From: Burkholderia sp. WP9
Lineage (GTDB): Bacteria; Pseudomonadota; Gammaproteobacteria; Burkholderiales; Burkholderiaceae
Length of the DNA: 64,000 nucleotides
Reading direction: 5' to 3'
NCBI RefSeq assembly: GCF_900104795.1
Contig: NZ_FNTG01000004.1
Location: forward strand, 171,117-235,116
Position numbers and translations under genes: made by a program. Positions 8,242 to 28,373 of the stretch are shown one piece after another. Position 1 is the stretch's first letter. Every line of letters starts with the position of its first letter. The notes beneath the pieces are model-generated. The model saw only the letters and a list, made by a program, of their open reading frames with translations. It was not told the origin of the DNA and did not search any database.

Positions 8242-8520
8242 ATGACCCCAGCCGATTTTCCGATCTCAGCGAAAGCCGGCCACCGGCTCACCATCGCCCA
8301 CGTCGAGGCCGCGCTCTCGCGCTGGCGTGAGCGCAAACCGGTCACGCTTCACACGACGCTCTCACCGGCCGAAGCCCTCGCCAGACTGCTTGCGCGAATG
8401 ACGGCCCGCCGCGAAACCACCATCCGGTGGATCGACCTCATTTTTGTGGAACGTCACGCGCTCGGTATCCTCTATCCGTATCCGGTCGGCAGCGCCTGGC
8501 CGGGGTTACCGCCTGACTGA
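8242..8520 (+). CDS. Hypothetical protein
   Basis: About 92 aa from ATG 8242, with no clear ribosome site. Residues 10-45 form a basic amphipathic part (HRLTIAHVEAALSRWRERK) and the end reads ETTIRWIDLIFVERHALGIL. Not recognised. Upstream, in another frame (about 8100-8300), AVKFPASDLDALFEPIPEVL looks like the end of a different broken gene, so this stretch is probably a patchwork of fragments. The downstream end overlaps the methyltransferase remnant on the other strand. Confidence 0.4.
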   Translation: MTPADFPISAKAGHRLTIAHVEAALSRWRERKPVTLHTTLSPAEALARLLARMTARRETTIRWIDLIFVERHALGILYPYPVGSAWPGLPPD

Positions 8521-8976
8521 AGACGGCGCAGGAAACGCTCCGCCTCCGGCGGATCTTCGAGCAGTCCGGCCCGCTGGTCGGGCAGAAAGATCAGGCACGC
8601 CCAAGGGCTCGAAGACCCGGCCCAAATCCTCTTTCTGGCTAGCGGTTTGCAACGCGCGGCCCGGATACGGCGGATTGCCGACGACGTATATTTCCGTTTC
8701 CGCCGACGGTGGACAGACGGCGAGCCAATCACGACGCAAGGCGTTACCGTGAACGATGTTACCGCTGTCGCGCAAGGGGAGCGCGGGCGGCGCCGTGCCG
8801 AACTGCTGCTTGAACTGCTCGTTCATTTGATATTCGGCGATCCACAGCGAGAGCTTTGCCGTTTTCGCAGCGAAGTCGGCCAGTTCGATTCCGTAGAACT
8901 GGCTCAGATGCACGCTCGACATCGCAATCGCGTCTTTGCCGAGCTCGGAAAGCCGCGCGAAAACCCGGCTCTCCAT
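8506..8976 (-). pseudogene. N6-adenine DNA methyltransferase fragment
   Basis: About 125 residues of a class I SAM-dependent DNA methyltransferase, as in type IIG or large restriction-methylation proteins. LSQFYGIELADFAAKTAKLS leads to the catalytic motif IV, VVGNPPY, and then QTASQKEDLGRVFEPLG. Full proteins of this kind are several hundred residues, and both ends are missing here. A stop lies immediately before the first matching residues, and the C-terminal side turns into unrelated Arg-rich sequence after about 8590. It is a remnant of a defence or modification gene, not functional. Confidence 0.7.
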
Positions 8977-15500: not shown

Positions 15501-16061
15501 TCATTCGGATCGAACTAGGCGGCGACTGTCTAAATCTTTTATCGCGGGAAATACCGCTTTGTCCCACGAATAATAACCGGGCCAGTGCCAGACCACGTGC
15601 TTTCCAACAACAACTTCGAACATCGGGGTCCGGGATTTAAGATGGCCACGCCGCAAGTTGCGTTGATAAAGCCATTGGAGCTCGTCCGGGTAGTCATCGG
15701 CCACCTCAGTGGCGGCTATCGCCGAACGTTCTACGATGACTAGACGATCGCCTGGATGGTTCTGGGCCCACGATTCGAAGTCGTGCTTCCCGCCAAGGAA
15801 GCCCTTCCACCGGGCGCACCACTCACAGTCTTTCGCCGAATGCATGATGAGCAAGAGGGGTTCGTCCTTGTAAATTTCGGTTTGTCGTACTGCTTCGGCC
15901 CAGTCCTTGTTTGTCTCAGTGGTTATGGCGCTCGCGCCATCGGCTTTACCGGTGCCGTCGTCCGCCCAGCCAGCAGACGGTAAGGCCAGCAGCAGGAGCG
16001 CTGTCGAGAGAACACGGAAGATATGTGGCGCGGAGCAACAAGCTTTCATGGCATCGCTCAT
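15501..16061 (-). CDS. Exported thioredoxin-like protein
   Basis: 186 aa with a cleavable signal peptide (about 1-33, hydrophobic FRVLSTALLLLALPSAGWA) and a thioredoxin-fold start: EPLLLIMHSAKDCEWC places a C-x2-C pair at residues 79 and 82. FWESWAQNHPGDRL-type residues follow, then RTPMFEVVVGK, where the thioredoxin cis-Pro is normally found. It probably acts on periplasmic disulfides. The start at 16061 is fixed by GGGAGGAA eight bases upstream; a longer reading to 16196 lacks one. It lies beside the CHAT protease locus on the same strand, but about 640 bp separate them, so a functional link is only suggested. Confidence 0.75.
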   Translation of the reverse strand: MSDAMKACCSAPHIFRVLSTALLLLALPSAGWADDGTGKADGASAITTETNKDWAEAVRQTEIYKDEPLLLIMHSAKDCEWCARWKGFLGGKHDFESWAQNHPGDRLVIVERSAIAATEVADDYPDELQWLYQRNLRRGHLKSRTPMFEVVVGKHVVWHWPGYYSWDKAVFPAIKDLDSRRLVRSE

Positions 16062-16196
16062 CAGTTTCCTCCCGGTGACGGCTTGGCGCCACGCCTCGCG
16101 GATACATCGCAGCGCGGTCGCAACGGAGCCCGCAGAGGACACGCGGAGGCGCTGTGTAACGAGGCTAGACAATATCGCCGGGAGCGCGGCCGTCAT

Positions 16197-16699: not shown

Positions 16700-19596
16700 T
16701 CAGCGGGCCGCGTCACCGGCAAGAACGTATGCACCCCAGAAATACGGGTGACGGTAGAGTTCTCCATCCTTGCCGCTGGCCATGTCGCGTTCGGTACGCG
16801 CTAGTGCCTCCGCTTTTGACAGCGAGGGATTACTGGCATAGGTGCGGAATACACCGGTTGTCACGTCTGTCGCCGACCGAGATTCGACAGCCCACTGGGT
16901 GAGGAGAATCGAGCGAGCCCCCGCTGAAAAAAAGGCGCGGGATAGTTCCGACATTGCATCTCCCGCATTACCGGTGACAAGTCCCGTGTTGCAGGCGGAC
17001 AGTACCACCCAGTCGGCATTTAACCGCAGGGTTACGATGTCGTCCGCGGTGAGAACCGAATCTGGCAGCCCGTTTCCCTCATAGGCCAACGCGAGCCCCG
17101 CCTTGTGCCAGCCCGGCACTTCGCCCGCGACAATGCCGTGTGTAGCGAACAGAACAACCCGATCGTTCAACAGATCCCGCTTCATGACTTCGCTACGCGA
17201 GGCGCTGGTTCCCCACAGCACGCTGTGCCCGGAGGCATTGAGCGTCTTCGCGATTGAGGTCGCCTCGTCGAGCGTCTCAGGTAGCGGTGCGACGCGATGG
17301 TAGTCGAACGAAGCTGTACCCGCATCAACCGGAAAGGCTCGCGCGGGAGTCTTATCAACTGGGGGGGCGGCAATCCTGGCTGAGTCGCGGCCGTCGAAGC
17401 TCGGATCTGCGAATGCGATCAGCGCCTCGCCAGCGTGCGCTGCTGGATGACTACGGGCGAGCATGAGAGCTGCGGAATTCGGAATACGTACCGGCATTGT
17501 GCTGGCGATCCACCAGTGTGTACTCGCAAGATCCGTTGCGGGTGCCGTCACGAGCACATCGAACGGCAGGCTGGAGAGAATGCCGCTCGTGGCGATGTAC
17601 ACGGTGGCCGCCCCTTCGAGGTCGGGCTGGATCGAAGAGATCAACAAGCGATAGAGATCCGATGCCACTGTTGTGTCGAACCCGGCCAGATCACCCGCCT
17701 TACGTGGCGGAACGCCCGCATCAAACACGTTGCGAAGCGTCAAGATCTGCTTTTTCAGGTCTGCACGCGTTACGTTGAGTCGTGTCGCATGCAGCGAGCC
17801 TTTGGCGTTAATGACAAATGCGTAGGTCGCACCGCGCCCGACGTAGAAGTCGACATAAACCTCATCGGCATGCAGCGCCGCGCCCACCTGGTCCGGCGTT
17901 GGAACAGCGGACGATACAAGCCGCCGGTACTCGGGAAACTGCTTGTTGATGCGGTCGTGTAGTGTGGCCAGATCCTTGGCCGAGGCATTCATAGCTTCCT
18001 CGGCATCTTTGACACTAGCGATCGCATTCCCCTTATCTACGGTATTTTCTGCGTCGACTTTGGCAAGGCGTGTGCTCAGCCCCGAGAGCCCCATCCGTTC
18101 GGCATCCTGGGCACGACGTGTCATCTGCTCCTGCTCAACCAGGCTGCGCAGCTCCGGTGTGACCGCCGCCAATCGCGCTGCACCATCGCTCATTGCGCCC
18201 TGGGTCGCATTCATGTGAAACAATTCGGCAATACGGAAGGCGAGCGCCTGACCCTCTGCGCCGTCGTCCATGAGGCGGCTCAGACACATTGCAACCGCAC
18301 CGTCCTCGACAAAAGCCCCCGCGCTACCGGAAGCGTCCCAATCGTCGTTTTGGCCAAGCATGGGCATCACGTATCGGGAGATCTCACTTTCGCTGACCTT
18401 TCTGTCGGGATCCTCAAGGCGATAGAGCATCAACATTGCAGACTGATACTTGACGAATGGACTCTGCGCACCCTGATGCATTAGGTTGTACCCCAGCACG
18501 CGTGAAATGCTCGACTCGGCTCCCGACCAGTTCCCCTGCGTCGCGAGTATCACAGACAGCCGCTCGTCCGAGCTCGGTGTTTTGGCCACGACAGGATTGA
18601 TCGAAGCCGCGTATTGGAACGCCTCGGCATCGGCTTTGTAATCGGCAAGGCGATTCGTCGCAAGCGCAATCATCAACCGTGTGCGGAGCGCTTGCGCATA
18701 GGGGTAGGAATAGGGGAGCGCGCCGGCATCCCGATACCCTTTGATGGCTTTGTCAATCCAGAAGAGTGCGCCATCATAGAGATGAGATAGTCGTCGTTGG
18801 ACATGAGCGCGATCGAGACTGCAACCTGGACGAGCGCGCGTTGCAAGGGGCCAGGTTTGAGTCGCGGATCGTGGTCGATGTCCCAAAGCAGTCCGTTCGC
18901 GTAGTTCAGCGCCTCGGTGCGCCGGTTATTCTGCGTTAGCAAGTCAACGAGATGCACACTTTCGTCGAGCAGTTGATTGGCGGCTTCCTCGTGACGATGT
19001 TCACTGAGCGACGGGTTGTCGAGGTTCTTTCTGGCAAGATCGGACGCCTCGCGCACCAGGCGTAACGCCGTGTCATGTTGATTCAACGCACGGCGCGCAA
19101 GCTCCGCCTCGGCAGAGAGATATTCGTAGGCCGGTTCTTCCGACAGCGTTTCAAGTTCGGCAGCGGGCGTCTGGTCGGCCAGTTTCTTCGCCTGATTCGC
19201 CAGCCTCTGGCTTCGCACGAAGTCGTTTTCCAACGCATACACAAGGGCGAGTCCCGAGGCTGTCAGCGAGCGTTGGCCAGGCGGGATTAGCCTGTCATTA
19301 ACGATGTCTTCCATCACCCGCCTCGCGTCCGCAGGGTCATCCGCGTCAAAATAATCCTGGACGAGGACAATCAGCAGCGAAAGTCGTATATCGCCGTCTA
19401 AATTCTCATCCAGCAGTTTACGAATGGCCTTCTCTTCATCGGCAACGGAGGGTTGTCCCGACGTCTTGTAGATTTTTGCAACGGACGCGTTCAGGCCTTG
19501 TGGTTCACCCGCTAGCGCAATTCGGAGTAACCCGCAAGACGATCCGAGGAGAGCTGCCGACAGGATGCACAGCATAGGCCTTAGAGATGGAATCAA
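16700..19596 (-). pseudogene. Exported helical-repeat CHAT protease, left copy, frameshifted
   Basis: A protein of about 960 aa if repaired. The start is probably ATG 19575 (MLCILSAALLGSSCGLL), an export signal with a Cys that may be lipidated; the reading can extend to 19596 only inside the IS end. The N-terminal 500 residues are helical TPR-like repeats. The C-terminal CHAT caspase-like domain has the His in VVLFATHGIVAGEVPGW, the Cys in WVVLSACNTGLV, and ends at GDAAR. An 11-bp insertion CTCATCTCTAT near 18785-18795 breaks the frame after SNDDY; the next frame resumes with DGALFWIDKAIKGYR, as in the right copy's SNDDYDGAM. CHAT proteases act in proteolytic signalling and defence in other systems. 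Export and pairing with the gene at 22075 are notable. An IS element separates it from its former promoter region. Confidence 0.85.
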
Positions 19597-20495
19597 AAAG
19601 ACCCGTGGGGGCTGTTAACCTTTTCGGCAAGCTGTTAACCTTGGCCACCTGAACAACTGGAACCAAGGATGGGCGCGCCGATTGTTGATGACGGACTGTG
19701 GACACTGATCGAGCCATTGCTGCCTTCGCCCAAACCCCGGCGCAAGAAGTATCCAGGCCGGTTGCCCGTTGCGAACCGAGCTGCACTGAACGGCATCCTG
19801 TTCGTGCTCAAGACCGGTATCCGCTGGCGCGACCTGTCGACCAAATTGGGATTTGGATCGGGTTCAACCTGCTGGCGACGGTTGCGCGACTGGCAGAAGG
19901 TCGGCGTGTGGAAGCGATTGCACGAGCTACTGCTGGCGAAGTTACGCGAGGCAGGCGAACTCGATTTCTCACGAGCAGCCGTCGACTCTTCAACTGTGCG
20001 AGCTGTTGGGGCGGGCGAAAAACTGGTCCGAACCCCACGGATCGTGCGCGACCAGGTTCCAAGCACCACATCCTCGTAGACGCCAATGGCGTTCCTGTCA
20101 GCGCGATCCTCACTGGCGCGAATCGCAACGACGTCACCCAGCTGCTGCCGCTGCTTGACGCCATTCCACCGATTCGTGGCGTACGTGGCCGACCGCTTCA
20201 GAAGCCCAAGGTCGTCTACGCAGACCGTGGCTATGACTCCGAGGCACATCGCCAGAAACTTCGCGAGCGCGGCATCAAGCCGGTGATCGCCAAGCGTCGG
20301 ACAGAGCACGGCAGTGGTCTGGGCAAATTCCGCTGGGTTGTCGAACGTACTCATGCGTGGCTTCACAACTTCCGTCGTCTTCGAATTCGCTTCGAACGTC
20401 GGGCCGACATTCACGAAGCACTTCTCAAATTCGGTTGCTCCCTCGTCTGCTGGAATATATTCAGACGGACGGAGCAGCCTTTTTGAATCCGTCTC
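19584..20495 (+). mobile_element. IS5 family (IS427-group) insertion sequence
   Basis: The terminal inverted repeats are GAGATGGAATCAAAAAG at 19584-19600 and CTTTTTGAATCCGTCTC at 20479-20495, with two mismatches. They are flanked by a TTA duplication (19581-19583 and 20496-20498), the short T-N-A target usual for this group. The element is about 912 bp and is complete. It sits 8 bp upstream of the likely ATG of the left CHAT gene and separates that gene from its upstream DNA. Confidence 0.85.
19669..20486 (+). CDS. IS5/IS427-group transposase, two frames joined by -1 frameshift
   Basis: Frame A (19669-20079) begins MGAPIVDDGLWTLIEPLLPS and carries the first Asp in AAVDSSTVRA. Frame B, shifted by -1, carries HHILVDANGVPVS, the second Asp in VVYADRGYDS and the Glu in FRWVVERTHAWLHNFRR, ending at 20486. 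The overlap contains AAAAA at 20018-20022 (in GGCGAAAAACTG), a plausible slippery site, and IS427-group elements commonly use such a shift to make the full transposase. It is therefore read as a normal two-frame transposase rather than a broken gene. Confidence 0.82.
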
Positions 20496-20498
20496 TTA

Positions 20499-21055
20499 GA
20501 CACCACCACACGGCATGCGATGTATTTTCGGATCGGATGATCATCCTTGCCTCCGCTTCACACGTCGTTGCAGACCTCGGTTGTGTAGGTGCTCATGCAT
20601 GGCGCGTGTCCACGGTATTATCGGTCAGTACCGTGCGAGTGCAATCGCCAAGCAGCGCTGCCTCCACGCAATTCATACCAAGACTGTCCGCTGCCCAGGA
20701 GTACCAGGCACAAAGACGGAAATATGGCATCAGCCATCCAAGGACGAACAATAGCTTGTGACAGAAAAATAACCCTGTCTGCTATGGGCCAGCTTCTGCA
20801 GTTCGTCATCGTTTATTACACTTTGAGCGGGGGGCCGTTACACGCAGCCGACGCTCGCGACGGGATTGGACGTGCCAATTATCTGGCCTCGCGTTAATAA
20901 CATGAGTTGTTAATGAAGCGTGACAGAAAATAGTCGCATTCACCGCCCGAAGATGGCAAAAGGCAATTGATTCGCCTTATCGATTGCGAATCAGGCAGGG
21001 CGCTGCGAGGTTGTCCCGCCAGATTTCTGTCAGCGCGAAGACCGCGCTGTCGCCA
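20499..21055. other. Gene-free stretch, former upstream region of the left CHAT gene
   Basis: No gene was recognised. Before the insertion sequence arrived, this DNA joined directly to the left CHAT gene start, so it should hold that gene's original promoter or the end of the upstream SLATT-like transcript. No clear promoter or terminator could be picked out. Confidence 0.4.
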
Positions 21056-21580
21056 TTACCGTTCCGGAATAAAAAAAGCACTCGACGGCATTTCAGACAG
21101 CACTGCGGTAGTGCAGGCGTTCAGAAGTCGTGAATTAGCGATCTTGTCCGGACTGGAAATATCGATGTGGCGTTGTCGTTCCAGCGCACGCAAAAAGTCA
21201 GCCTTTAACTCCTCGTCGTAGACCCCGCGCTGTTCGACTTTGCGGCGTATCGTTTCGAGGTCGTACTCGAGGGCTTGATAAGAAACGATCGTCATTTCAT
21301 ACGTTTTGAGCGTCTTTCTAAACTGAATCGCCGGCCGGATGGCAGCAATGAAGGCGGAAACCGTTCCGAGGCCTTGCCATACGTGCTTGCCCATGTCAGT
21401 TTTGAAAAACCACAGGCCGGCGACCGCCGATGTCGGGGCCGCAATGACGAGCGCCAAGTCCATCGCTTTATCCAGAAGTTCCAGACGGCGCAGCCGTTCA
21501 CTGTAATATCGGACATTGAGCCGAGCGGTACGAAGCTTGTCATACACCGCCCAGACTGGATGGTTCTCGCGTCCCATGGT
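21056..21580 (-). CDS. SLATT-like two-TM membrane protein
   Basis: About 174 aa from ATG 21580, behind GGGGG. The plan is a charged N-terminal helix (YDKLRTARLNVRYYSERLRR), TM1 at about 41-58 (LALVIAAPTSAVAGLWFF), a short loop, TM2 at about 67-86 and a long soluble helical tail. This is the layout of SLATT domains, two-TM modules predicted as pore-forming effectors in nucleotide-signal and other conflict systems. The assignment is by architecture and feel, not a database hit. It is upstream of and co-oriented with the left CHAT gene, and its start is only 27 bp from the divergent secreted-protein gene. A generic two-TM protein is the alternative. Confidence 0.6.
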   Translation of the reverse strand, partial: TMGRENHPVWAVYDKLRTARLNVRYYSERLRRLELLDKAMDLALVIAAPTSAVAGLWFFKTDMGKHVWQGLGTVSAFIAAIRPAIQFRKTLKTYEMTIVSYQALEYDLETIRRKVEQRGVYDEELKADFLRALERQRHIDISSPDKIANSRLLNACTTAVLSEMPSSAFFIPER

Positions 21581-21607
21581 TCCCCCGTACACGTGCGGAG
21601 CAAAATA

Positions 21608-21925
21608 ATGATAGTCAAGAAACACAGCAGAGGCATTCTTGTCTTGCTACCTGCGCTATTTTGCTTGTCGACTCTCACCAAGGCCGAGGTGCCCGAAACA
21701 AATACCTCGGTATCAGGAAAGGCGGCGACCCAAAAAGCACGAAGGCCGATTCCGTCAAGCGCCGCGTATGCACAACCGGCATCCGCGGCAAGCGGCGCCG
21801 CTTCGAACCCTGACCAGGGGGATGCGCCACCCGCCACACGCAGCCTGTTTCCGAATGGCCCTCAACCCAGCGTCGACCCGACGCAACCCTGGCCGCGATC
21901 CGGCGCTGCTGACGAATCCAAGTAG
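21608..21925 (+). CDS. Small secreted Pro/Ala/Ser-rich protein
   Basis: 105 aa from ATG 21608, with GGAG upstream. A clear signal peptide (MIVKKHSRGILVLLPALFCL, cut after about 26) is followed by a low-complexity Ala/Ser/Pro/Gln tail with no Cys. Not recognised. It reads toward the right CHAT gene, 149 bp downstream, and is probably in its operon. Both are exported, so it may be a partner, propeptide-like inhibitor or substrate of the protease; that is speculation. Confidence 0.6.
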   Translation: MIVKKHSRGILVLLPALFCLSTLTKAEVPETNTSVSGKAATQKARRPIPSSAAYAQPASAASGAASNPDQGDAPPATRSLFPNGPQPSVDPTQPWPRSGAADESK

Positions 21926-22074
21926 CGTGGCTCCCGTCAGAATGAATCTCCGGCAGTCCGGGGCGCTTTACGCCTTGCATCCCTACTTTACTGCTGCTTC
22001 AATACAAGCTCTACTAGAGCGGCCGACCATCGTCTTATATGGCGAAGCCGAACCAGTCCTATGGAGACAGGGAC

Positions 22075-24982
22075 ATGGAGATACGCTGCCGTCGGCTGAT
22101 CCTTCTGATTTCGTTGATCCCGCTCACGCTGGCAGATCTGTCGTGCGCGTCGGACGACTCGTCCCGGACCTCCCAATCCGGCAATTCCCTCGCGTCGTCG
22201 GCGCCCACGTCGTCGGGTGCACAGGGTCCCCAACAACAGACGCTACGGGACCGCGAACAGGCGGTGCGACATCAATTGACCGACACGACTGATGACGACG
22301 CGCGTTATGCGTTGCTCGACGGTCTGGCGTCGGACTATTTTCGTGCGGGAATGGTGGCAGACTCGATGCGGATCCGCGAGCAGATCGTCGAGGACTCGCG
22401 TATTCCGGCTGGTCGACGCTCGCTCACCGCTTCATCGCTAGCCGGAGGGTACGCGCAGGGCTTCGACCACGCGCGTAGCGAGCGCCTACTTGGGCGCGCG
22501 CAGACGCTGGCGCGCGACACAACTCCGGCAGAACTCGAGACATTGCCGCGCGAGCCATCCTATGCTTACTTCTCGGCTGAATCGGAAATCGACCGTCGGT
22601 ACCTTAACCGGCATGACCTCGCGCTGCTAAAGCGCCGGGAAAGCGCGGAACTCGCCTGGCGTAACATCAACGATCCGGCACTCAGTGTCAGACGACACCA
22701 GGCAGCAGTTAACGAACTCCTCGACAACTTTCCCGAACTGATCCGCGAGATGGTCCAGAACAATCGCCGGACGGAGGCGCTTAGCTATGCGAACGAGATT
22801 CGATGGGATATCGACAATCGTCCCGACATGAAGGCGAATGTCACGCAGCGTGCGGAGGTTGAGATCGGCCGGTCGATGGCGCTTGCATCGAACGACGACT
22901 ACGATGGCGCGATGTCGGCCGTCGATGCAGCGATGACAGGCTACCGGAAGGCAAACCTCGCCCCGTATTCGGGGTACGTCGCGAACGCATTACGTTTACG
23001 TCTGATGTATGCACTTGCAACAGGGCGCATCGGCGACTATCAGGCGGACGCAGACGCCTACGAGTCCGCAGCAAGCATCAATCCGGTAGTGGCCCACACA
23101 ATAAGCAATGACGAACGCGAGTCTTTGGTACTCGCTGCGCACGGAAACTGGCAGGAGGCTGACAGGCGGATCAGGGCAACGATGGCCAGGAATCTGGTCA
23201 GCCAGGGGCCCGAAAGCCCTTTCTACAAGTACCAGGCGGCAATGCAGATGCTGTACCGGCTGGAAGATCCTGCCGGCAACGTTGGCGAGGCGGAGATCGC
23301 CGCCTATGTCAAACCCCTCGTTGGCACGCAGGACGACTGGAACGACTCGAGTACGCGGGGCGCCTACGGCGAAGACGGGGCTCTGGCCCAATCGCTGAGC
23401 CGCGCGATGAGCGAAGGTGAGCAGGGGCAGGTCCTCGCGTTTCAGATCGCCGAGCTGTTCCATATGAACGCAACCCAGGGCGCGATGGCCGATGGCGCGG
23501 CGCGCCTCGCGGCGTCGACGCCAGCGTTGCGCGCGCTGATCGAGCAGGAGCAGTCGCTGCGCCACGAGCAGAACACCGCACACCTCGCCTTGGCACGCTC
23601 GACCAACTGGCTCGAAGCGGAGCAAACGCAAGGCGGCTCGCAAGGGCGGCAGAATGTTGCCAGTGCCAATGTCGAGCATGAAGAGAATGCCATCAAGGCC
23701 GTTGACGGAAAGCTGGCCAGACTGCGTCAGCAGATCGCCGCGCAATTTCCCCTCTATCGTCAACTGGTGTCGCCAGAAATCCCGACACCCGACGCCCTCG
23801 GCAAGGCACTTCACGAAGGCGAGGTCTATGTGGACTTCTACGCGGGGCACGATGCGAGCTACGCGTTCGTGGTACGTCCGGGCGCATCCCCTCCGCGCGG
23901 TCCGCCTGAGCGTGACACGTGCCGAGCTCGCGAGACAGGTGAAGGCATTGCGAGCCGGTTTTGATGCAGGGGTGCCACCGCAGCACGCGGGCGATCTGGC
24001 AGGCTTCGATCTGGGCGCGGCGGCGAGCCTGTACCAGGCGCTGATCTTCCCGGTGCAGGACGATATTCACGCTGCGACGACGGTGTACATCGGGACGAGC
24101 GGAGTCCTCGCGAGCGTCCCATTCGACGTGCTGACTACGCGTCCCGCGTCAAGTCTTGCAGACGCCAACTGGTGGATCGATACAGCAACTCCAGTGCGCG
24201 TACCGAGCGCCTCTGCACTCGCACTCGCACGGAGTCATCCCGCCACGCACGCCAAGGAACCGCTGATTGCGTTCGCCGACCCGAGCTTCGACGGTCGCGA
24301 TTCGCAAGCCGTGGGCACGCCAACCGCCAGCGTTGCCGCGCGCGCTTTTCCCGTCGACACGGGTGCTCGGGCGTTCGACTACCATCGCGTGATGCCGTTA
24401 CCCGAAACGATGGCCGAAGCGCACTCCATCGCCACGACGCTTGGTGCCTCTGATGAAAATGTGCTCCGGGGTACGCGAGCCTCGCGTAGTGAAGCGATGA
24501 AGACAGATATGTCGAATGAGCGCGTCGTGCTGTTCGCGACACACGGCATCGTAGCGGGCGAAGTACCGGGATGGCGCAAGGCGGGTCTTGCGATGGCCTA
24601 CGAGGGGAGCGGGCTGTCCGATTCTATTCTCACTGCGGACGATATCGTGACGTTGCGGCTGAACGCCGACTGGGTCGTTCTGTCCGCCTGCAATACGGGA
24701 TTCGTTACCGGCACCGCTGGTGATGCAATCTCGGAATTGTCCAGGGCGTTTTTCGCGGCAGGCGCGCGTTCGATGCTCGTCACTCAGTGGGCAGTTGAAT
24801 CGCGCTCAGCGACCGAGGTCACAACCGGCGTGTTCCGAACTTATGCCGACGATCCGTCGCTGTCAAAGGCCGATGCACTCGCGCGCGCAGAGCGCGCTAT
24901 GGCCGCCGGCAAAGATGGGGCGCTTTATCGTCATCCGTATTTTTGGGGCGCGTATGTTCTGAGCGGTGATGCTGCTCGCTGA
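22075..24982 (+). pseudogene. Exported helical-repeat CHAT protease, right copy, frameshifted
   Basis: Paralogue of the gene at 16700 on the opposite strand, about 968 aa if repaired. The start at 22075 has a GGAG before it and an export signal (CRRLILLISLIPLTLADLSC). Helical repeats (RTEALSYANEIRWDID; SNDDYDGAMSAVDAAM) fill residues about 60-550. Then come EVYVDFYAGHDASYAFVV, a one-base frame loss near 23880-23890, and in the next frame RAVRLSVTRAELARQ through the CHAT domain with His in LFATHGIVAGEVPGW and Cys in VVLSACNTGFV, ending at GDAAR. Each half is otherwise intact, so the lesion is recent or a sequencing error. The two separate halves (22075-23964 and the part up to 24982) would be inactive alone, the first lacking the catalytic residues. 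Confidence 0.85.
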
Positions 24983-27467: not shown

Positions 27468-28373
27468 ATGGACTTCCTTCCGATTGCCGCAACTGCGCTT
27501 TCGATTGCCCCTGTTGTGCTCGGAATTGTCGCAATCTTACTTGGCGCCGGCCTTGGTTTCAGGTCGCTTATCCTATATGTGATCAGCGAACTTCTGTGGC
27601 GCAAGGAGATTACTCCATCGACGCGGCCAGTTAGAGAGCCGAGACTGAGCCCGGATAAGGTTTACGAAATTCACCGCGCCTACATAGAGCACGAAGATAA
27701 TCTCGTTAACCAAAGAACGACCTTGATGGTAACAATTCAAGGACTCTTGCTAGCCGCCTTTGGTTTTGGTCTTCAAAAATTCTACGAAAAGGTGGATGCC
27801 AAACTTTCATGTGACTTTAGAGATCAGCTGTTGCATCCAATTGACACGATCCAAGAAGTACTGCCTAAACTATTCCCTCCCGAAAATTTTCAAGACTTGG
27901 TGGTGCTCGAATTCAACTGCTATCTGTTAATTATAGTTCTTGTCGGCTTAGCCACCAGCCTAATCGGTAGAATCTCCATTGGAGCCGCAAAGAAGGCTAT
28001 CTTGGCACTAGAGGATCATTGGAATATTTATTATTATCAAAGCAAAGTACGACCGGAGCAAGAGATTAAATTTAGAATCTTTCCCGGCATTTCCGGAGGT
28101 GGAAAAATAAAAAATCGGAAGCGGGGCATAAGCTTTGTTAGTTGGATACCCGGCTTTTTCGTGTGGCTATGGATTCTTATGCTAACCGCCCGATTAGTTT
28201 TTATGATCGCCGAGGGGACGTGCATTAAGACGGGGGTACCGCTCCCGAATCCGATTTCACCGGAACATGAGAAAATCACGCACGAATGTTCGTCCATCTC
28301 GTCGGCGGTCCACTCGCGGCTCATCCGATGCAGTGACGCCTCATCGACGAGGCGCCGCAGTACGATCATATAA
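27468..28373 (+). CDS. AT-rich four-TM membrane protein, unknown
   Basis: Up to 301 aa from ATG 27468, behind AAGGAA. Hydrophobic segments are at about 5-28 (AATALSIAPVVLGIVAILLG), 84-103, 143-165 (LLIIVLVGLATSLIG) and 228-250 (IPGFFVWLWILMLTARLVFM), with a soluble part containing YIEHEDNLVNQRTTLMVTIQ between the first two. Not recognised; the layout could suit a sensor or effector membrane protein. Codon use is visibly AT-richer than neighbours, a sign of transfer. The last 40 residues turn Ser/Arg-rich and probably read into unrelated DNA, so the true end may have been lost. Confidence 0.6.
   Translation: MDFLPIAATALSIAPVVLGIVAILLGAGLGFRSLILYVISELLWRKEITPSTRPVREPRLSPDKVYEIHRAYIEHEDNLVNQRTTLMVTIQGLLLAAFGFGLQKFYEKVDAKLSCDFRDQLLHPIDTIQEVLPKLFPPENFQDLVVLEFNCYLLIIVLVGLATSLIGRISIGAAKKAILALEDHWNIYYYQSKVRPEQEIKFRIFPGISGGGKIKNRKRGISFVSWIPGFFVWLWILMLTARLVFMIAEGTCIKTGVPLPNPISPEHEKITHECSSISSAVHSRLIRCSDASSTRRRSTII

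Follow-up and report, generated by a model that had tools for sequence, protein, structure and literature searches.

An SLATT-like membrane protein gene, a small exported protein gene and CHAT-domain genes in a rare conserved cluster of soil Burkholderiaceae

The locus and its genes

The stretch of DNA analysed here (hereafter, the window) comprises the final 64 kb of a 235,116-bp contig from a genome of 9.02 Mb; genes encoding ParA- and ParB-like proteins at 572-2808 make it likely that the replicon carrying it is plasmid-like or secondary. Between 16.7 and 25.0 kb, two outward-pointing CHAT genes enclose a gene for a 173-residue protein with two transmembrane (TM) segments and a gene for a 105-residue exported protein (Table 1).

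Table 1. Features of the CHAT locus in window coordinates
Feature	Position	Strand	Basis or remark
Left CHAT, downstream frame (end of TPR region and CHAT domain, with His/Cys motifs)	16700..18886	-	PF12770, E 1.1e-46
Left CHAT, upstream frame (TPR region)	18673..19596	-	Homology switches frame near 18.78 kb
IS5-type insertion sequence interrupting the left CHAT in its 5' coding end	~19586..20494	+	Edges approximate, judged against the P. fungorum and P. hiiakae loci
Extreme 5' end of left CHAT, severed by the insertion	20495..20544	-	blastn against L009 (P. fungorum) and L006 (P. hiiakae); outer edge placed from the likely P. fungorum start
SLATT-like two-TM protein, 173 aa	21056..21577	-	Start ATG at 21577; two hydrophobic helices
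Gap separating the divergent start codons, 30 bp	21578..21607	.	By eye, each gene has a ribosome-site-like motif, GGGGGA in one case and CGGAG in the other
Small exported protein, 105 aa	21608..21925	+	Signal-peptide-like N-terminus, low-complexity middle, conserved PTQPWP tail
Right CHAT, upstream frame (signal-peptide-like N-terminus and TPR region)	22075..23964 (open frame from 22039)	+	Homology stops near 23.89 kb
Right CHAT, downstream frame with CHAT domain	23654..24982	+	PF12770, E 1.1e-48

The CHAT domain (PF12770) is recognized in the two window copies with scores of 160 and 166.6 bits, against a curated cut-off of 24, and the catalytic His and Cys, whose motifs are present in both copies, are conserved without exception in the aligned CHAT sequences (14 of 14 and 43 of 43). 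In the structural model, helices spanning 52 to 565 form a TPR superhelix, and matches to TPR proteins were obtained by both profile and fold, which bears out the N-terminal helical repeats described in the original prediction. The fold is predicted to combine this superhelix with a CHAT protease domain resembling those of separase and Csx29, and peptidase activity is likewise predicted; a single-sequence search of the PDB with the left-type CHAT returned no match. Signal peptides and topologies were assigned throughout from hydropathy and inspection. On this basis, 15 of the 16 close CHAT stretches, as cut by us, have signal-peptide-like N-termini, in keeping with the export signals anticipated in intact homologues, and by eye several of the CHAT N-termini resemble lipoprotein signals. 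The same kind of N-terminus is seen, again by hydropathy, in 17 of 20 hand-picked, less close relatives; the view of export as an unusual trait is, therefore, not supported.

The proposal of two CHAT genes on opposite strands holds for their domains and motifs, but neither gene is a single open frame: each is split across two different frames, and the left copy is additionally interrupted by the IS5-type element (transposase frames at 19669-20079 and 19698-20486; DUF4096, E 5.9e-26; DDE_Tnp_1, E 7.8e-25). The CHAT genes of relatives are intact. The frame changes may be sequencing errors; given the insertion in its 5' end, the left CHAT is a probable pseudogene. Residues 37-728 of its downstream frame share 90% identity with a P. 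hiiakae gene. When the CHAT pieces were compared with P. fungorum, dN/dS was 0.12-0.27 in four pieces, and this persisting purifying selection would fit a recent decay; the window locus seems to be a decaying copy of the module.

The description of the central minus-strand gene as encoding a two-TM SLATT-like protein stands as regards the two hydrophobic helices, whereas the family label falls below the thresholds: 18.9 bits against SLATT_1 of Pfam (cut-off 26.3) and 22.7 bits in NCBIfam (cut-off 41). For this reason we name it SLATT-like and do not file it as a SLATT member. Among 39 aligned relatives, 15 match SLATT_1 at E <=0.01 (best 1.6e-5); one relative (P0003) carries a precomputed SLATT_1 annotation, and the source names of this and another (P0004) begin 'SMODS and SLOG-associating 2TM effector'. 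The model (pLDDT 83.2) has helices at 7-56, 61-84 and 86-117, giving a hairpin with a four-residue turn and a long helical C-terminus; in the near relative P0001, the 19-residue hydropathy mean peaks at 1.68 at residue 37 and, modestly, at 1.27 at residue 66. On inspection, the positive charges at both ends suggest that both termini are cytoplasmic, with the turn of ~4 residues outside. The gene is constrained, with dN/dS of 0.04-0.34 in the 17 pairs, out of 21, for which a value was obtained, and 133 relatives were found at E <=1e-3 in a large protein set, those from Bradyrhizobium, Massilia and acidobacteria being among the matches listed. We also considered conserved regulatory DNA within the coding start, and rejected it: synonymous change over the first 20 codons is 0.25 versus 0.298 overall (permutation p 0.23, six loci).

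On the plus strand, the small secreted protein of the original prediction is supported as a real gene by dN/dS of 0.23-0.72 in its own frame over 15 pairs; the two shifted frames, calculated for one pair, give 0.96 and 3.1. Seventeen homologues were retrieved at E <=0.01 among scored candidates from 5.8 billion sequences, and all 17 retain the PTQPWP tail. The next residue is Arg in 16 and His in one, an exception that weakens the idea of cleavage after an invariant Arg. The middle of the protein is poorly conserved, and its sequence would be compatible with a disordered linker ending in a docking motif. Neither the stretch 21659-21925, compared with Pfam, nor the full-length protein, compared with NCBIfam, gave a match. 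Within 21000-22100, a promoter scan found none (0.4 expected), and there are two terminator-like sites against 1.2 expected.

Recurrence across genomes

A scan in which the left CHAT piece served as query against genome contigs retrieved 24 loci; 10 of these are close, with 51-90% identity, and belong to Burkholderiaceae. A close SLATT-like/secreted pair is present in nine Burkholderiaceae genomes: that of the window, P. hiiakae (L006), P. ginsengiterrae (L008), P. fungorum (L009), C. ptereochthonis (L010), Burkholderia sp. Ax-1719 (L012), C. grimmiae (L015, where the secreted gene is diverged, E 9.9e-6), G374 (L040) and G1230 (L079). The two genes are divergent in eight of the nine, with start codons 30 bp apart in seven of these eight; in C. 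grimmiae the distance, measured to the likely start, is 33 bp. A CHAT gene adjoins the pair in eight of the nine genomes, as conserved linkage would demand. It lies downstream of, and co-directional with, the secreted gene in the window, L006, L008, L009, L010 and L040, and downstream of the SLATT-like gene in the window (across the insertion), L006, L009 and L015; in L012 it is tail-to-tail with the pair. In L079 there is no CHAT at the pair, and a member of the family is encoded on another contig of the same genome. At the other extreme, five CHATs occupy the P. hiiakae locus, three along one arm and two along the opposite arm, with one of the five truncated where the retrieved stretch ends.

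The notion that the locus consists of two mirrored halves is not supported by this comparison. In a 29-sequence tree, the left and right CHATs fall in separate, old, well-supported clades that also hold the copies of other species, which rules out a recent mirror duplication; moreover, the number of CHATs per locus ranges from 0 to 5, and in C. ptereochthonis the SLATT-like, secreted and CHAT genes follow in order on one strand.

Frequencies were estimated in a sample of 398 genomes of the family Burkholderiaceae, using the CHAT query at E 1e-60 and scoring at most two candidate places per genome, so that CHAT counts are lower bounds. The query matched at least 15 of the 398: nine at >=54% identity and six at 31-35%, the latter not being counted as members of this family. 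The SLATT-like query matched seven, six at 48-100% identity and a seventh (G375, 22%) in a different cluster. When the nine CHAT-family genomes were searched, the SLATT-like gene was found in six and the secreted gene, which was sought in these nine and in the fetched loci, in the same six. The hypergeometric chance of all six falling within nine of 398 is 1.6e-11, uncorrected for relatedness, such that the true surprise is smaller. Elsewhere, the SLATT-like family is rare, being detected in 2 of 398 genomes of a phylum sample and 1 of 399 of an order sample (both including this genome), and in 7 of 144 within the genus, six of them close.

The CHAT also occurs on its own. Three of the nine sampled CHAT genomes (G213, G034 and G357) have neither partner, and both partners are absent within the fetched flanks of four of the ten named close CHAT loci (L007, L011, L013 and L014), one of which is from P. 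unamae, where the pair seems to lie elsewhere; the CHAT may, therefore, act without partners. Conversely, G1229 encodes a distant SLATT-like protein (40%) in a genome without a match to this CHAT at E 1e-20, and no CHAT match lies in the 19 kb retrieved with the distant SLATT-like gene of G577. The tight unit might, then, be the divergent pair by itself, the CHAT paralogues being separate envelope proteins that share its neighbourhood by chance: the constant spacing of the pair, set against CHATs that vary in number and clade, and the CHAT genomes that lack the pair would agree with this, whereas the finding of a CHAT family member in all eight close-pair genomes searched whole speaks against it, and we consider it quite unlikely. 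Because the arrangement recurs in other species, it is more than chance. As read from the sequences, the linkage of SLATT-like, secreted and CHAT genes is real, and the module is a rare, conserved, co-inherited gene cluster of soil Burkholderiaceae.

Carriage of the module by plasmids or phages was considered and discarded: the left CHAT piece has no match in 50,697 phage records, and its plasmid matches are distant only (131 records, each with <60% identity and <80% coverage of the query). Similarly, the SLATT-like protein has no match among 72,556 plasmid records, and no relative of it is encoded by any of 138 pattern stretches from viral contigs. Separately, at L081 (G1229, contig C33; 7330-12605), the distant SLATT-like gene lies between Abi_alpha (E 1.5e-29) and a TrwC relaxase (E 6.4e-83), and it looks as if the SLATT-like family is also carried on a conjugative element there.

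Genomic surroundings and possible function

Proximity to defence or phage genes, which had been put forward as a point to check, is not supported: by eye and among the matches listed for 52 neighbours scanned by profile, no such gene is clearly recognized at the close loci, except for a restriction-enzyme fragment ~8 kb away in the window. The neighbours scanned, against PADLOC and PHROGs, were open reading frames (ORFs) of the window and of six loci: 49 drawn from a list of 82 and three chosen manually, with L006 and L079 contributing none. The 25 of 59 matched PADLOC families that were listed, with one member each, include PDC-S12, type IIG restriction, BrxHI, SngC, Cas3-like, DpdF, PbeA, GajB and others, and most of these look to us like ordinary helicases or enzymes whose domains are also found in defence genes; most of the 25 of 72 PHROGs families listed are enzymes, polymerases, partition proteins, a transposase or families without a name. 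The type IIG match presumably corresponds to the fragment at 8506-8976, which matches the MmeI DNA-methyltransferase domain (E 2.9e-40) and is perhaps the remnant of a type IIG restriction system. Neither the CHAT nor the SLATT-like proteins match PADLOC at E 0.01. A defence island around the module is not supported. Settings of the conflict type are seen for two distant SLATT-like genes, that of L081 (above) and that of L041 (below).

Several other features were noted in passing. Downstream of the left CHAT, the product of 15501-16196 has an N-terminal hydrophobic stretch and, by eye, a CEWC thioredoxin-like motif; it has no Pfam match and no tblastn match at ten close loci. A membrane protein encoded at 27468-28373 gives a sub-threshold 8xMP match (25.1 bits versus 30). 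The genome of the window has three further CHAT genes, at L042 (C1:3521000-3540900) and L043 (C5), the two on C1 being within 20 kb of a TIR-HEAT gene. In Paraburkholderia domus (L013, 2-4312), a second TPR-CHAT of a different type is divergent beside a Ser/Thr kinase gene with DUF4384. Finally, the different cluster of the Burkholderiaceae genome G375 (L041, contig C405; 6944-9091) has, in a row on one strand, the SLATT-like gene (22%, E 1.6e-4; itself without a Pfam match), a ThsB-type TIR gene (E 6.7e-18) and a caspase C14 gene (E 1.4e-17); this TIR-caspase cluster is Thoeris-like, and the SLATT-like protein is its putative membrane partner.

As to function, the reading we favour, if tentatively, is that periplasmic CHAT proteases act together with the exported, PTQPWP-tailed peptide and the inner-membrane SLATT-like protein. 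The CHATs would be periplasmic or envelope-anchored latent proteases that sense envelope disturbance. As the exported peptide would occupy the same compartment, we propose it as their partner, whether substrate, inhibitor or tether; being fixed in the module, it offers a testable substrate candidate. The SLATT-like protein would be an inner-membrane effector, let go to permeabilize the membrane; its likely topology would leave hardly anything exposed to direct cleavage from the periplasm, and we therefore propose the peptide as the intermediary. A more specific version, which we hold to be unlikely, is that of an envelope immunity or death module operating beyond the inner membrane, in which the exported CHATs act on the exported peptide and thereby license a two-TM pore, and arrays of up to five CHATs provide a periplasmic repertoire of sensors.

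The same proteins could be cast in envelope signalling rather than killing: the exported TPR-CHATs would be DdvA-type sensors or regulatory proteases, their signal being relayed, or its level set, by the SLATT-like protein and the peptide, with no cell death. When the nine pair loci were inspected by eye at the level of ORF starts, a few neighbours also being profile-scanned, we saw neither a sigma factor nor an anti-sigma domain nor a partner kinase, and we view this alternative as rather unlikely. Interbacterial antagonism or predation, in which the CHATs would leave the cell and act extracellularly while the small and membrane proteins serve as guard or export helpers, appears very unlikely; no dedicated protein-secretion apparatus was noticed by eye at the nine pair loci. 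The export-type N-termini, several of them lipoprotein-like by eye, and the CHAT proteins reported from a Bacteroides T6SS locus, in a region of it that is variable (PMC11854122), would be in its favour.

Comparison with known systems

For the favoured assembly of exported CHATs, peptide and SLATT-like protein, a search of the open-access literature found no paper joining the CHAT domain with SLATT, or the CHAT domain with Burkholderia, and eukaryote work predominates among the matches listed for CHAT, caspase and gasdermin; the arrangement seems to be undescribed in the literature searched, most subscription journals lying outside its scope. The closest parallel for the SLATT-like protein is with SLATT proteins, which are reported as predicted pore-formers and as required for DRT10 phage defence (PMC12632851, PMC7159879). 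The DRT10 SLATT is likewise small and helical, with a predicted action on the membrane, but its reported partners are a reverse transcriptase and a non-coding RNA (PMC12632851), whereas the SLATT-like protein here, with scores under the cut-offs, is accompanied by exported proteins; the window has no Rfam match, and no reverse transcriptase was noticed by eye among the neighbours.

More distant large CHATs from sphingomonads, Microvirga and an alphaproteobacterial MAG (L022, L024, L025 and L029) are 27-28% identical to the left CHAT. Unlike the module here, L022 and L029, the two scanned, have kinase, PP2C or FHA genes nearby: by Pfam, a Ser/Thr kinase in both, PP2C in L029, and T6SS-FHA and a CAAX-type protease in L022. 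No SLATT-like gene was noticed by eye in the ORF lists of the four loci. In L022, L024 and L029 (Microvirga, Sphingomonas and a Sphingomonadales MAG), the large CHATs lie immediately 3' of very long, open-ended ORFs that are repeat-rich by eye.

HetF of Anabaena similarly combines CHAT with TPR and is tied to the membrane; it differs, according to PMC8406250, in having its CHAT at the N-terminus (residues 1-555) and one predicted TM segment, and in being a component of the divisome. DdvA of Myxococcus (PDB 8rot) is an anti-sigma factor with a membrane anchor, a domain that is not seen here. Csx29 of the type III-E CRISPR system (Craspase) is also a TPR-CHAT protease, reportedly partnered by Cas7-11 and a guide RNA. 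The export-type N-terminus of the CHAT here argues against Craspase membership; nor was a Cas7-11 or CRISPR partner recognized among the best 25 of 59 PADLOC families matched by the 52 neighbours. Separase is the eukaryotic cohesin protease and is not known to be exported. The best-studied bacterial CHAT proteases, Csx29 and the gasdermin-cutting ones, act in the cytoplasm, and an export-type CHAT set would extend caspase-like control to the periplasm.
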